From NCBI RefSeq assembly GCF_022531965.1, contig NZ_CP092831.1, positions 4,713,501 to 4,777,500 of the forward strand: DNA of 64,000 nt, in the 5' to 3' direction. The notes beneath the pieces are model-generated. The model was not told where the DNA came from and did not search any database. It worked only from the letters and a program-made list of their open reading frames with translations. This document shows positions 31,691-36,044 of this stretch, piece by piece (position 1 is the first letter of the stretch; every line of letters begins with the position of its first letter). Both the position numbers and the translations under genes were made by a program. Source of the stretch: Paenibacillus peoriae (GTDB lineage Bacteria > Bacillota > Bacilli > Paenibacillales > Paenibacillaceae).

Positions 31691-33004
31691 ATGAAAATCA
31701 AGCTGGGTATTATCACGCCTGAGACCCATATGGACTATTTCCGCGCCATTGAAGAAGAAATGCGGCCCTTATGTCAGTTCAGGTTTCTTACAATCAGTAA
31801 CTTCCGGGAAACAACAGACATCTATCTCAAAAACTTAGATTCGGTGGATGGATTTGTGATCAGTGGCAGGATGCTTTACGAGTCAATCGATAAGGAATGC
31901 CTGGATGAAAAAGTACCTGTTCACATTTTGCAGGATGATGAAAACCTGCTTTACAGGGAACTTTTCCGGCTGCTGGTTACAGAACCTGGGCTTGATATAT
32001 CCCGGATCTATGTGGATTATGCGTATATAATCAAGTCTTTCAGCGAATTCCAGCAATACCTGACTCATGAGGGAAAGCCCATTGACAGCGGTGATCTGCT
32101 CGAACGGGTGGAGACAATGCTGGAGAACCATATCACTCTATGGGAAGACAAGAAAATAGACTTGTCCATCACCGCGTTCGGCCACTTTGTTCCAGAACTC
32201 AAAAAGCACGGAGTCAGATATATCTTAATCCGGCCCACTTTGGAAAACGTTAAAGAGACCATAAGAGAGATCATCAACGAGATTACTATCCTCAAGCTTA
32301 AGAGTCAGAGGGCAGTTGTCGCATGCTTATCGACCAGAACGGCGGATCCGCTATCTGAAGAGCAGCTTCATGAGCTAAAGGTCCTTGTCGGCAGGTTTCT
32401 GCGCAGCGTGAATCTGGCAGACACGGCCCAAATTTCGGAAGGCTTTGTCAGACTATACACCACCTACGGAAATTTCATGAAAATCACCACTAACGCGCAT
32501 AACTGCACCCTACTGGAGTATCTGGAAGAGCGCATAAGCGACAAGGTGAAGATCGGGTGGGGCTCGGGACATGAATATTTTCAAGCTAACATTAACGCCA
32601 CCAAAGCTCACAGACAGGCGGAAGCCTTTACGGGCAGCTGCAGCTTTTTTATAAACGAGGATCAGAAGGTTATCGGCCCAATGCGGAGCATGAATGTCAT
32701 ACAGTTCTCTGAACAGGGGGACCCGGAAATCATCGCGTTAGCCAAAACTATCGGAATAAACAACATCAACTTGCAAAAAATCATGTCCTATGCAGAAATC
32801 ATGAGAACAAATAAATTATCCTCTGAGGATGTTGCTGGCTGCCTGTCCATGACCGTCAGAGGTGCAAACCGTATCCTTAACAAAATTGAAGAAAGTAAAT
32901 ACGTACAAACGGTATTTGAAAAACGAGACAACAGTAAAGGGCGACCCAAAAAATACTACGAACTGTTGTTTCTTGACAAAGAAGGGCGCAAATTAAGCAG
33001 ATGA
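31691..33004 (+). CDS. Putative transcriptional regulator, 437 aa, divergent from the amidohydrolase operon
   Basis: ATG with AAAGGA upstream. The N-terminal 190 residues look like a ligand-sensing alpha/beta domain (KLGIITPETHMDYFRAIEEE, VDGFVISGRMLYES). The middle contains a GTP-cyclohydrolase/GAF-like region (KIGWGSGHEYFQANINATKA). The C-terminus (about 375-430) is a winged HTH (LSSEDVAGCLSMTVRGANRI, GRPKKYYEL). I do not recognise a named family. Position and the upstream direct repeats suggest control of the adjacent operon. Confidence 0.7.
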   Translation: MKIKLGIITPETHMDYFRAIEEEMRPLCQFRFLTISNFRETTDIYLKNLDSVDGFVISGRMLYESIDKECLDEKVPVHILQDDENLLYRELFRLLVTEPGLDISRIYVDYAYIIKSFSEFQQYLTHEGKPIDSGDLLERVETMLENHITLWEDKKIDLSITAFGHFVPELKKHGVRYILIRPTLENVKETIREIINEITILKLKSQRAVVACLSTRTADPLSEEQLHELKVLVGRFLRSVNLADTAQISEGFVRLYTTYGNFMKITTNAHNCTLLEYLEERISDKVKIGWGSGHEYFQANINATKAHRQAEAFTGSCSFFINEDQKVIGPMRSMNVIQFSEQGDPEIIALAKTIGINNINLQKIMSYAEIMRTNKLSSEDVAGCLSMTVRGANRILNKIEESKYVQTVFEKRDNSKGRPKKYYELLFLDKEGRKLSR

Positions 33005-33045: not shown

Positions 33046-33088
33046 AAAAAAAGGCACATTTTCAAAACTGAAAACGTGCCTTTTTTTT
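33046..33088. terminator. Bidirectional terminator
   Basis: The 11-bp stem AAAAAAGGCAC / GTGCCTTTTTT has an inner AT-rich arm and T or A runs on each side. It follows the regulator stop. Confidence 0.85.
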
Positions 33089-33176: not shown

Positions 33177-33656
33177 TTATTTAACTCGAATTTGTTTCTT
33201 TAACAACATGATTTGTCCGATATGATATGCATTATGAATACTTAAATTAGAAACAACTCCCCACCAAGGAGCATTAAAATATTCTGAAAGTTGTTTTGTG
33301 AGCTTTGATTCATCTGTTTCTTCTAAAATAACTCTCCAATTGCTAAATACATTCTCAAGTCTATTTAATGTTTCCTTCCAGCCTAAATCATTCAATTGAT
33401 CTTGAGTCAAAGAAAATGTCTCATCATTGTTAATAGCATTATTTAATATAAATTCTCCTGCCTTAAAACGCTCAAGCCATGTTTCATTCCAATAAATAAG
33501 ATGATTCACTATAGACCATATGGTTTGTTTATTGTCATTCTCAGTAACTGCTTCCGTTGCTGTTAGATCATCCAGTATATCCGCAAGAGGAATGAACCAA
33601 CTCTTATCGTTATAACATGCAGTTAATTGATCTATTAAAATTGATTTATAGGTCAT
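33177..33656 (-). CDS. DinB-family protein
   Basis: 159 residues from ATG at 33656, with GAGGAG 6 nt upstream. It has the DinB four-helix pattern with metal-binding His positions (TIWSIVNHLIYWNETWLERF and IHNAYHIGQIMLLKK). These are often thiol-transferases or enzymes of unknown substrate. It lies directly after one attC-like palindrome and may be the cargo of a mobile cassette. Confidence 0.85.
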   Translation of the reverse strand: MTYKSILIDQLTACYNDKSWFIPLADILDDLTATEAVTENDNKQTIWSIVNHLIYWNETWLERFKAGEFILNNAINNDETFSLTQDQLNDLGWKETLNRLENVFSNWRVILEETDESKLTKQLSEYFNAPWWGVVSNLSIHNAYHIGQIMLLKKQIRVK

Positions 33657-33695
33657 CAAATGCTCCTCATCTCTTAATCGATTTAGGGTTCTTTC

Positions 33696-33773
33696 GGATA
33701 ACGTTCCTATATTCACGACTCAGCGAATGCCGGACCCAGGACGAAAGTCCGCAGCATGAATATTATGTTAGAT
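33696..33773 (-). repeat. attC-like imperfect palindrome A (78 bp)
   Basis: On the minus strand it begins ATCTAAC (fits RYYYAAC) and ends GTTATCC. The outer arms TAAC...GTTA and ATATTCA...TGAATAT pair, and the inner arm ATGC-TG-CGGAC pairs with GTCCG-GCAT. Both flanks are nearly identical to palindrome B at 34480-34596 while the centres differ. Such layout is typical of integron attC sites; function here is inferred. Confidence 0.55.
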
Positions 33774-33810
33774 GTAACGGCCTACTTTGAATTACCTTCA
33801 GTCGTTCTTA

Positions 33811-33849
33811 CAAAAAAAGAACACCAAGCCACTTCTACACTTGATGCTC
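33811..33849 (-). terminator. Terminator at the end of the Doc-like gene
   Basis: The 11-bp stem AGAGCATCAAG / CTTGGTGTTCT (with wobbles) overlaps the stop codon and is followed by TTTTTTT on the minus strand. Confidence 0.72.
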
Positions 33850-34211
33850 TTCTATCCATTTTTGTATGTTCTCTTCTGTGAATTCACCTTCTGCAGTCTT
33901 CAATCCCAATTCAACTAATTCTTCTTGCTCGTACTTTACAGAAATCTCATTTAAACGTAGTAAAAGCAGCATTGTTGCTACCCCTATTCGTTTATTCCCA
34001 TCAATAAATCCATGATTCTTTATTAAGCAAATGTAATGACAGATATTTCCTTTATACTTCCTTCGTAAAGTTCCTGTCCATCGAAAGCTGCTTCTGCTTT
34101 CTTTAGAGCACTTTCAATTAGTCCAAGATCTCTAACTCCATCGGAGCCACTAGTTGCCTTAATAATCTTAGTATGGAATTCAAGAATTTGTCCCAGACTA
34201 AGACTCTTCAT
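33835..34211 (-). pseudogene. Doc/Fic-family toxin, frameshifted
   Basis: Frame 1 from ATG 34211 encodes LSLGQILEFHTKIIKATSGS then DGVRDLGLIESALKKAEAAF, typical of Doc, and stops at 34023. The Fic core NHGFIDGNKRIGVATMLLLL follows in the next frame, up to TAG at 33835. One missing base near 34024 restores the join. Total length (about 125 codons) equals intact Doc. The intact protein would phosphorylate EF-Tu. The start overlaps the antitoxin stop by 4 nt. Confidence 0.75.
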
Positions 34212-34381
34212 TTAGCTAACTCCCTAAGTGCCTCAATATTTTCATTCACAATATCGTCCATGATCGACTCCATTTGCTTATTGCTACGATTCTTTAGGAA
34301 TTCAACGAAATCAATCACTTCAATTTTCTTGTCATCAGGCAATGCCAAAAAGTCTTGAATAAGTTTCTCTTCAATGCTCAC
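34208..34381 (-). CDS. Antitoxin of the Doc-type module
   Basis: 57 residues from GTG at 34381, with AGGAGG 8 nt upstream. A helical protein (SIEEKLIQDFLALPDDKKIE, VIDFVEFLKNRSN) of the DUF2281/Phd-like type, ending MDDIVNENIEALRELAK. It overlaps the toxin start by 4 nt, the classical order antitoxin then toxin. Because the toxin is frameshifted it may now be an orphan. Confidence 0.7.
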   Translation of the reverse strand: MSIEEKLIQDFLALPDDKKIEVIDFVEFLKNRSNKQMESIMDDIVNENIEALRELAK

Positions 34382-34479
34382 TATGCATACCTCCTGCACT
34401 TCTTTGTTCTTTATTATACACTAAAGTCTGAAGGGAACTAACATCTGCTTCCTATGTTGTTTGGTGTTGCTGGTATTTC

Positions 34480-34596
34480 AGATAACATTTCTGTATTTAC
34501 GACCCAGCGTATGCTGGGTGTCTGGCAGCTCCCACTCCCATAAAACCCCTCTGCCGGGCCCAGGGGCATGCCCGCCGCGTGAATATTATGTTATAC
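34480..34596 (-). repeat. attC-like imperfect palindrome B (117 bp)
   Basis: On the minus strand it begins GTATAACATAATATTCACG and ends CGTAAATACAG-AAATGTTATCT. The ends pair (TAACAT/ATGTTA, TATT-x-ACG/CGT-x-AATA). About 20 bp at each flank match palindr. A with few changes, while the centre is longer and carries its own hairpins (CCCAGC/GCTGGG, GGGCATGCCC). It follows directly on the stop codon of the HEPN-like gene and precedes the antitoxin gene. Confidence 0.55.
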
Positions 34597-35002
34597 GATG
34601 GGCATTTCATCACTGAATATACTCATCAAAATTTCTCGAATATATACTAATTGAATAACTGCAATCTTGCTTGCAGGATCGAGTGATCTTAATGACAGAT
34701 CGTATTCCCTACAATCAAAATACACAGAACCACTTCTCAAACTAATCTTGTTTGCTTCTGGGATTTCACTTACTCCTCTTAGCAGATTCAATTTCTCCTC
34801 TCTACTTCTTGGATCATCTGGATCCCATTCTGTTATTAATGGGAGAGTTCCATGCGTAACTTTATTCCTAAGATTTTTAACTTTCTTCAAATTATCAATT
34901 ACATCTTTATTATAAACTTTTTGTTTTTCTAAATAGGTAATCAGATTGTTAAATGTAAATTTATCGCTCAATGAAAATGGATCTTCTATCAGTTCGATGC
35001 TG
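34591..35002 (-). pseudogene. HEPN-like protein, C-terminal part (split by IS3 element)
   Basis: The last about 137 codons of a gene: TFNNLITYLEKQKVYNKDVI then LKKVKNLRNKVTHGTLP, with the Rx4H motif (RNKVTH) of HEPN ribonuclease-type domains, ending SIFSDEMPIV. The apparent start at 35019 lies in transposase sequence. The likely original 5' end is at 36107-36175 on the other side of the insertion. Function inferred only from the HEPN-like motif. Confidence 0.55.
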
Positions 35003-35757
35003 GTTGAACCAATGAACATAATCGTATAATTCCAACTTCAAATGACGAAGATTTTGAAAGTTCATCTGGTTCACGAACTCCGTTTTCATGATCTTATAGG
35101 TGGCTTCGGCCACGGCGTTGTCATACGGACACCCTTTCGCACTCAGCGATCGACCGATTTCAAACGTCTCTAAAAGCTCATTCATCTTTTGATTTTTGAA
35201 CTCGCTGCCACGGTCGGTATGAAACCACTGAATCTGATGCAGATCGCCTTTCACGGTCGCAAAGGCGCGAGAAATCAGTGCTGCATCCTTATTAGGGCCA
35301 GCACTATGACCGATCATTTCTCGATTGAACAGATCGATAAGCACACAAATATAGTGCCACTCGTTCTGGACTTTCACATAGGTTAGATCACTGACCACCA
35401 CACGTTTGCTTTCCGTTTGGTTGAACTTGCAGTTCAGTGTATTGGCTATAGCCGCTTCATTACAAGCGGCTTTATGGGCTTATATTGTGCCACAGTGTAT
35501 GTCGAAACCAGTCCCTGTTCTTTCATGATCCGACCGATTCGACGTCTGGAAACCACGAGCCCTCGCTCGTGAAGCTTAACTTTAATCTTTCGAGTGCCAT
35601 ACGCTTTTCGATTTTTGTGAAAAATGTCCACAATGGCTGTGGTCACTTCGTCTTCTGGCGACTCTTCGTTGGCTTCATAGTAAAACGTACTTCTTGCGAT
35701 TTGCAGGACGTCACACAATGCTGATACCGAGTATTTATCCCGATTATTCTGAATGAT
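35003..35757 (-). pseudogene. IS3 transposase orfB (frameshifted, truncated)
   Basis: First part CDVLQIARSTFYYEA to STYTVAQYKP; then the frame shifts near 35477 and continues as NQTESKRVVVSDLTYVKVQN, WFHTDRGSEFKNQK and DNAVAEATYKIMKTEF, which carry the DDE residues of the rve domain. The C-terminus is lost after about 10 residues past YDYVHWF. Confidence 0.75.
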
Positions 35758-35759
35758 AG

Positions 35760-36044
35760 CTACTTTCGTCCCATGATCAGCGCGGCTTGCTTTAAAATAT
35801 CATTTTCCATTTTGAGGCGTTGAACTTCTTTGCGTAAAGTGATTAGCTCATTCTCTTCTGGCGAGCGATTGTCCTTCTCTGAGAAAGAGCCTGTCGTTTG
35901 GCCTTGTTTAATCCAGCGATCCAAAGCCGAGGCGGTGAGGTCATATTCCTCCACCAGATCCGCTCTGGACTTTCCGTTCTCATATAATAGCACCATTTGC
36001 TTCTTGAACTCTGCTGTAAAGGTACGTCGTTGTTGTTTTGGCAT
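35760..36044 (-). CDS. IS3 transposase orfA
   Basis: 94 residues: HTH domain TFTAEFKKQMVLLYENGKSR, ADLVEEYDLTASALDRWIKQ, then a leucine-zipper ITLRKEVQRLKMENDILKQA typical of IS3 orfA. It normally joins orfB by a -1 frameshift. Intact, but its partner is broken. Confidence 0.85.
   Translation of the reverse strand: MPKQQRRTFTAEFKKQMVLLYENGKSRADLVEEYDLTASALDRWIKQGQTTGSFSEKDNRSPEENELITLRKEVQRLKMENDILKQAALIMGRK

Follow-up and report, generated by a model that had tools for sequence, protein, structure and literature searches.

Palindromic cassette sites in Paenibacillus peoriae point to an integron-like gene-capture system whose integrase lacks I2

What do two related palindromes between genes of Paenibacillus peoriae stand for, in a genus where integrons were not expected? 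The locus lies in a stretch of 64,000 nt (hereafter the window; contig NZ_CP092831.1, positions 4,713,501 to 4,777,500), for which the original prediction, made from the letters alone, had proposed an integron-like cassette array with attC-like sites, the alternative being a repeat near accessory genes that resembles a repetitive extragenic palindrome (REP) or a miniature inverted-repeat transposable element (MITE). Both palindromes are present on the minus strand, A at 33699-33770 and B at 34483-34593, and have the properties ascribed to them: TAACATAATATTCA is their common end, the other end is similar (G(A/T)AATA..G.AA.GTTATC), and centres and lengths differ. In agreement with the prediction, no integrase was located in the window, and the locus is a short two-site array remnant lacking one. 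Drawing on the rest of the genome and on the genus, we put at about 0.85 the probability that such palindromes are attC-like sites of an integron-type gene-capture system, with a tyrosine recombinase lacking the I2 domain as its integrase. To judge from sequence comparison, the system appears to work like an integron, yet its recombinase is not an IntI.

In the 5.84-Mb genome, TAACATAATATTCA occurs exactly eight times, on one strand only, twice in the window and six times at 3.968-3.990 Mb; together with four one-mismatch neighbours, the latter six copies span 3.967-3.992 Mb. The main array of the genome, ~29 kb long and 0.75 Mb from the window locus, lies next to a broken tyrosine recombinase. 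A fixed pairing rule identified 17 sites in the 67 kb read, with further right ends extending to ~29 kb, and the recombinase (PF00589 positions 59-167, 58 bits, one TGA) stands upstream of the first cassette and is followed by an attI-like stretch. Across the genus, a 19-base right-end pattern, allowing up to two mismatches, matched in 73 of 75 genomes, in 70 of them at least four times, while the reversed pattern used as control gave 3 matches in all 75; a few of the matches seem to have nothing to do with the sites, TGTGAATACAGGAACTTTA in G001-G003 being an example. The integrase P0001, identical to that of P. xylanilyticus, was matched at E 1e-60 in 46 of the 75 genomes, and full-length, stop-free copies (query from at most 33 to at least 368) were found in 21, several others being broken or partial. 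A tyrosine recombinase linked to such repeats, which the original prediction had suggested looking for, does stand beside arrays across the genus. On contig G001:C1, two full-length integrases lie 37 kb apart (426832 and 463763), and a third cluster of site ends lies at 1.30-1.32 Mb, far from both.

The anatomy of the arrays was derived from 20 loci of the genus, each read over 16-20 kb behind an integrase gene that is in some cases broken; these are not a blind sample, since they were chosen after site ends had shown in most of 30 loci. All 20 contain sites, 4 to 14 each and 173 in total, and the integrase gene lies upstream of the array in the same direction as the cassettes. When our own genome and the window are added, 192 sites are found in sense, 1 in antisense and 0 in the reversed sequence, with lengths clustering near 90, 110, 116, 140, 160 and 164 nt. 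A candidate attI site, recognized by comparison of 21 sequences, adjoins the integrase gene 3' of its stop codon: 15 sequences are conserved up to ...ACATAAATTAGATG|TTA and a second group of 6, including the remnant of our own genome, up to ...CGTAAATAAGACG|TTA, with divergence beyond these points (top-letter fractions of 0.85 and 0.93 in the 60 bases before G|TTA, and of 0.55 and 0.58 at positions 4-40 after it). What follows are mostly single-gene cassettes, each with its site, running in one direction; the longest open reading frame (ORF) is in sense in 147 of 166 cassettes and in antisense in 18. Comparison of 184 units yielded 47 full-length homologous pairs with at least 80% identity, several of which belong to one family and are not independent. 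In these pairs, identity is near chance left of G|TTA beyond the arm of the site, mostly 0.8-1.0 inside, and down to about 0.4 ten bases past the next G|TTA on the right. One copy is located at attI in 5 of the 47 pairs, and at locus L082 a 558-nt cassette sits at attI and has a second, 100% identical copy in the array 1.6 kb downstream.

If a cassette is a circle opened at G|TT, its first bases should be complementary to the end of the same cassette and not to that of the left neighbour. At the variable positions 4, 5 and 6, pairing of the cassette start with its own end amounted to 0.77, 0.77 and 0.75 (166 cassettes), as against 0.57, 0.37 and 0.36 with the end of the previous cassette (145) and 0.48, 0.30 and 0.33 with shuffled ends; over positions 4-9, the totals were 715/996 for the own and 438/870 for the previous end, with a mean of 473.5 and a maximum of 509 in 1000 shuffles. 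Canonical treponeme integrons, taken as positive control (42 cassettes), gave 0.98, 0.93 and 0.95 for the own versus 0.83, 0.52 and 0.36 for the previous end. The signature is in line with a G|TT crossover and a circular cassette intermediate. Exchange of exactly the DNA between palindromes, a check that had been proposed along with the array, thus came out positive between species, both in the 47 pairs and in the circle signature, and the cassettes are, by all appearances, discrete exchangeable units, each starting with the TTA that follows a G and closing with a palindrome of its own.

The sites also fold. Among the 39 distinct sequences of the 90-nt class, which include window site A, a structure of R stem, L stem and three inner hairpins has 95.9% of its cells paired, and double changes are seen in 13 of 29 pairs, compared with a shuffled mean of 5.9 and 0 of 500 shuffles as high. 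This structure was drawn by hand from one sequence, slid controls being 27-41% paired, and a free RNAalifold consensus recovered two of the inner hairpins but not the third. Sixty sites drawn randomly from the 192 fold as single-stranded DNA better than their shuffles, with a mean z of -2.37 for the top and -2.67 for the bottom strand. Furthermore, the right spacer is three bases longer than the left one in 168 of 169 scored sites, a constancy which suggests that one strand matters. These observations bear on the alternative that survives best, namely that the cassette system is the same but the integrase acts on double-stranded sites like Xer, with folding being incidental or serving some other end. 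We regard this as rather unlikely, though a serious contender: the enzyme is devoid of the very part held to confer single-strand recombination (PMC7790495) and site folding shows no strand bias, but paired arms and inner hairpins are preserved by compensatory changes in the 90-nt class, arm pairing is kept in other genera with unrelated arm sequences as well, and the constant spacer asymmetry counts against it as well.

As to the integrase, the residues R, K, H, R, H and Y, which we take to have the catalytic roles, are invariant in 20 aligned proteins. The catalytic fold is the same as in XerA, XerC and XerD, and among PDB profiles XerC-like 4a8e and IntI4 2a3v match best; the C-terminal end, IQSPLD, is much like that of IntI4 and, together with the linkage to cassette arrays, unlike Xer. 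The difference from IntI resides in the middle of the protein: the IntI model TIGR02249 matched in two pieces with the middle left out (209 of 265 bits), and the solved IntI4 (2a3v) has 60 residues opposite 18 positions of the integrase profile. Both motifs, GKG and LRH, were found in 67 of 80 proteins; they lie 67-69 residues apart in 66 of these and 64 apart in one. Since this spacing is kept across Bacillota and other phyla, I2 is absent from the family as sampled. By a second count, the spacing is 69 in I2-less proteins, 109-110 in four canonical IntI and 75-76 in seven XerC/D-like proteins. Without the I2 insert the enzyme is by definition not an IntI, and the arrays are therefore not ordinary sedentary integrons; canonical IntI over the cut-off was found in none of the 75 genus and none of 398 class genomes, and in 12 of 149 spirochaete genomes. 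XerC and XerD do not apply either, as P0001 stays far under both cut-offs (203 of 335.15 and 200.4 of 329.6 bits). P0001, P0065 and P0117 exceed the cut-off of the NCBI XerA model and P0080 does not, and the NCBI product name 'site-specific tyrosine recombinase/integron integrase' on several of the proteins derives from this model and is no evidence of function. Most of the integrases carry an N-terminal extension, their first ~90 residues (P0082, P0035, P0004 and others), in which a weak likeness to HARP (PF07443) is found, 5 of 20 members reaching E 1 or lower and the best of them E 0.0014. HARP domains bind branched DNA.

The I2 domain is described in PMC7790495 and PMC4792948 as exclusive to integron integrases and as conferring single-strand recombination, with intermediates lacking; its deletion abolishes IntI1 function, and the extrahelical bases of attC are read by it (PMC4792948 and PMC2727003). 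An extrahelical base in the L'' arm is not a general feature of the new sites: in a fixed-frame test, 155 of 192 sites were ungapped, 8 better bulged and 29 unclear, and a looser test assigned no bulge to 125, a bulge in L'' to 17 and in L' to 27, with 23 unclear. Where I2 is missing, the bases read by I2 are mostly missing too. The attC boxes do not recur in general either. RYYYAAC, which had been taken as an attC mark in palindrome A, fits 34 of 192 sites and GTTRRRY 30 of 192, whereas the inner TAAC and GTTA are conserved; the canonical attC consensus therefore does not define these sites. A strict signature (C.TC-NNN-TAAC ... GTTA-NNN-GAMA, arms paired) gave 0 antisense hits in the 20 arrays and, whichever the strand, 0 hits in five canonical loci, arrays being present in four of the latter.

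Sedentary integrons of the Treponema type, with their reverse-oriented integrase (PMC4909258), resemble the arrays in their mostly single-gene cassettes that run in the direction of the integrase, the attI-like site adjoining the integrase, the TAAC...GTTA site ends, the G|TT crossover and the complementarity of the cassette start to its own end. They differ in several respects: the new integrases are devoid of I2 and mostly extended at the N-terminus; the new sites have no consistent bulge and a spacer asymmetry of three bases, while the canonical treponeme sites have a one-base L'' bulge and a symmetric spacer in 46/46; R pairing extends over about 12 positions with a conserved mismatch instead of about 7; and the 90-nt class contains the inner fold of three hairpins. 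It is very unlikely that we are dealing with a canonical integron whose IntI has merely diverged or recently lost I2. Crossover motif, circle signature and integrase orientation would fit this explanation, as in the treponeme integrons (PMC4909258), but not the spacing of 67-69 residues kept in Bacillota and other phyla, the absence of any protein over the IntI cut-off in the genus and class genomes, or a tree in which IntI is a separate clade (100/100). Of the predicted integron, the cassettes, the attC-like and attI-like sites and the linked recombinase held up genus-wide; the window turned out to be a remnant, and the I2-less system to be something other than an ordinary sedentary integron.

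A structured RNA element at gene ends, for example an attenuator, could account for a multi-hairpin fold with covariation that lies mostly 3' of a sense gene, but has hardly any probability left. Sense-strand pairs of the G.T and A.C types are about equally frequent (20 versus 26 in the 90-nt class, 24 versus 17 in the 110-nt class), and this lack of a G.U excess speaks against an RNA transcript as the folded form; in 12 kb of the window, Rfam had no match up to E 1, and neither the unit boundaries nor the circle signature would be explained. A REP- or MITE-like repeat, in accord with short palindromes of conserved ends, can be dismissed almost entirely because what is exchanged comprises a gene and a single repeat (target duplications were not searched as such), swapped at an exact point, with a single orientation per array, a fixed position behind the integrase and 125 gene families among the 159 cassette proteins (at least 60 residues) between the repeats.

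Outside the genus, one genome per species was scanned, and the 80 named integrase loci are the best 80 of 541 relatives. To be called an array, a locus had to show two motif pairs, two hits of the signature or one word in four copies. The signature was used in preference to a general site detector, which had given counts of 77 plus and 15 minus, with 2 in shuffled and 0 in reversed sequence. Arrays are present at 37 of the 41 named loci with at least 5 kb downstream, at 38 of 47 with 2.5 kb and at 40 of 80 overall, and signature matches number 180 downstream in sense, 1 in antisense and 1 upstream. According to record titles, the carriers comprise Paenibacillus, Saccharibacillus, Cohnella, Gorillibacterium, Halanaerobacter, Alkaliphilus, Fusibacter, two Clostridia metagenome-assembled genomes (MAGs) and one Spirochaetales MAG; for Clostridium sp. 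CS001, Acididesulfobacillus and a Treponema MAG, the call consists of two signature hits each. At positions 4-6, the circle signature is clear (own versus previous end) in Halanaerobacter (9/9, 2/9), Fusibacter L148 (8/9, 1/9), Alkaliphilus (8/9, 2/9) and Cohnella L118 (29/33, 14/33), and moderate in Cohnella L143 (19/27, 11/27) and Gorillibacterium (13/18, 6/18). In these six sets and those of L150, L163 and L114, most sites are without bulge, with an asymmetry of three or four; a bulge scores better at 3/9 sites of L150, 1/4 of L114, 1/4 of Alkaliphilus and 2/7 of Gorillibacterium. Contigs end less than 1 kb downstream of the integrase at L101, L104, L108, L111, L113, L115, L120, L127 and L130. 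Draft genomes may hide such arrays, with the repeats breaking contigs behind the integrase. Relatives on plasmids (341 records) and phages (4 records) all stay below 60% identity; on Chryseobacterium plasmids (H1, H2), integrase relatives have 37-38% identity. In a Spirochaetales MAG (L145, 12040-20117), nine long repeats unmatched by the TAAC/GTTA signature lie behind an I2-less integrase, and one Neomarinimicrobiota genome (G079, contig 21 = L168 and contig 14 = L179; also the genome of L164) encodes a canonical IntI (438 bits, over the cut-off) and an I2-less relative.

In a 62-row tree, rooted with a long-branched outgroup of eight Xer proteins from Bacilli and freed of the long-branch rows L024 and L190, canonical IntI form one clade (100/100) that lies inside the I2-less family as against XerC/D (96/84). 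A tree holding the I2-less rows apart from IntI was not rejected (p 0.363), and the nesting of IntI is not secure. A test that rejected a single clade for the array-bearing rows (p 7e-9) was discarded because most rows 'without array' merely have contigs that end behind the integrase. I2 may have come after such arrays or may have been lost, or the two kinds may have had a side-by-side origin. One may tentatively picture the arrays as a living pre-I2 stage, a lineage like the integron ancestor in which cassettes were already captured at folded sites when the co-evolution of I2 helix and extrahelical bases had yet to begin, the HARP-like N-terminal extension taking the recognition role that later fell to I2; this is an idea to which we lend limited credence. 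If true, it would resolve the chicken-and-egg problem posed in the literature, namely how selection could have favoured I2 in the absence of attC sites.

Several findings weigh against an integron-type capture system with folded sites. The 110-nt class, 96.0% paired, shows hardly any covariation, the bottom strand folds better in 33 of the 60 sampled sites and the top strand in 27, hence without strand preference, and a minority of sites do score better with a bulge. Of the 173 sites in the 20 arrays, no more than 72 are caught by the strict signature. Despite 5 kb downstream, no array was detected at L117 (Halonatronum), L147 (Treponema), L155 (Aminicenantes) and L164 (Neomarinimicrobiota), and the circle signature is weak or absent at L150 (11/21 versus 10/21), L163 (5/9 versus 4/9) and L114 (5/9 versus 4/9). 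Finally, the integrase of our own genome is broken, and the cassette of the window as well as its site A violate the rules of the system.

In mechanistic terms, the integrase would most likely bind attI and, in a folded site, the paired R and L arms, and would cut beside G|TTA, so that one cassette would be excised as a circle and inserted at attI or another site. With less confidence, we suggest that the substrate might be a single folded DNA strand, and that the three-base spacer asymmetry and the extended R pairing may replace the extrahelical bases read by I2 in setting direction. The N-terminal extension, given its weak likeness to HARP, may help to bind the folded strand.

In the open-access integron literature that was searched, we found no description of this system. 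Integrons in Firmicutes are reported as extremely rare in the IntegronFinder 2.0 paper, Limnochorda pilosa having the sole complete one and different genera a few clusters of attC sites lacking integron integrases (CALIN; PMC9024848), and PMC8618304 lists Firmicutes among the phyla with integrons detected; single finds in the phylum are therefore already known. Cassette capture by an I2-less system in almost all genomes of a genus, in several Bacillota groups and in Spirochaetota would change the published statements on the exclusivity of I2 and on the rarity in Firmicutes. It would also supply natural variants for testing the roles of I2 and of the extrahelical bases, and the origin of integrons would become directly testable. 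The cassette genes form a pool to explore, with functions predicted from model names: among the matches listed for 111 representatives (25 of 82 Pfam families) are GNAT, APH-fold, methyltransferase, TIR, HNH and DpnII-MboI, and among those listed for anti-phage defence models (25 of 133) are NucC, ThsA, AbiC and AbiJ.

Back in the window, all parts of the locus lie on the minus strand. Site B (34483..34593, 111 nt, TAAC 34593-34590 to GTTA 34486-34483) carries the strict signature, and its crossover would fall between G 34486 and T 34485. Site A (33699..33770, 72 nt, TAAC to GTTA) does not carry it; by alignment it is a degenerate site of the 90-nt class with inner hairpins partly missing, and its crossover would fall between G 33702 and T 33701. 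As single-stranded DNA, site B folds somewhat better than shuffles (8/200 and 14/200 as good on the two strands; z -1.86 and -1.72). Site A folds no better than many of them (41/200 and 76/200 as good), for which reason folding alone is insufficient to make the palindromes cassette sites. The sole complete cassette unit, 33702..34485 (784 nt, G|TT to G|TT), is unpaired between its own start and end at positions 4-5, which breaks the circle rule and makes it look rearranged. With its two sites and no integrase the locus resembles a CALIN (the term of PMC9024848), from which it differs in that its sites deviate from the canonical attC type.

The genes around the palindromes have the same orientation, as predicted: an ORF remnant, site B, an antitoxin-like and a short ORF, site A, and a DinB-family gene. 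Their labels fared unequally. The DinB assignment stands (33177..33716 as listed, with an in-frame ATG near 33656; PF12867, 33.6 bits at a cut-off of 24.8), and no further site was seen behind this gene. The antitoxin-like ORF (34208..34399) matches DUF2281 just over the cut-off (28.3 versus 26.5 bits), with VapB and doc_partner models well under theirs. The 'Doc' ORF (34023..34211, 62 aa) is probably broken, and its resemblance to Doc is presumed only, with no Pfam or NCBIfam match behind it. Upstream of site B, the supposed HEPN-like gene is an ORF remnant (34591..35019) that has no Pfam match and reaches 14 bits with a Cas13b model, far under the cut-off of 150; its stop TAA is inside the TAAC of site B, and its start adjoins an element of the IS3 type.

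At the array end, next to the DinB gene, a chromosomal gene on the plus strand (31691..33004) forms the border here and in three relatives, its homologues being found in 4 of 74 other genus genomes searched (G017, G023, G041, G061). In G017 and G041, the homologue adjoins a cassette array of 8 and 7 paired sites, respectively, with no integrase-like motif in the 52-53 kb read; in G023, site ends are present beside it, and in G061 the stretch read contains a single weak right-end match. None of the four relatives shows a match to the upstream flank of the window locus, so that no clean empty site can be demonstrated. Between border gene and array end, a strong 19-bp inverted repeat followed by T's (33046-33087) looks like a terminator. 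The IS3-type transposase ORFs occupy three frames on the minus strand (34961-35401, 35446-35718 and 35760-36044), the first with 134 and the last with 49 bits against NF033516 (cut-off 160), and a 1.13-kb relative of this element is located near the corresponding array in G023.

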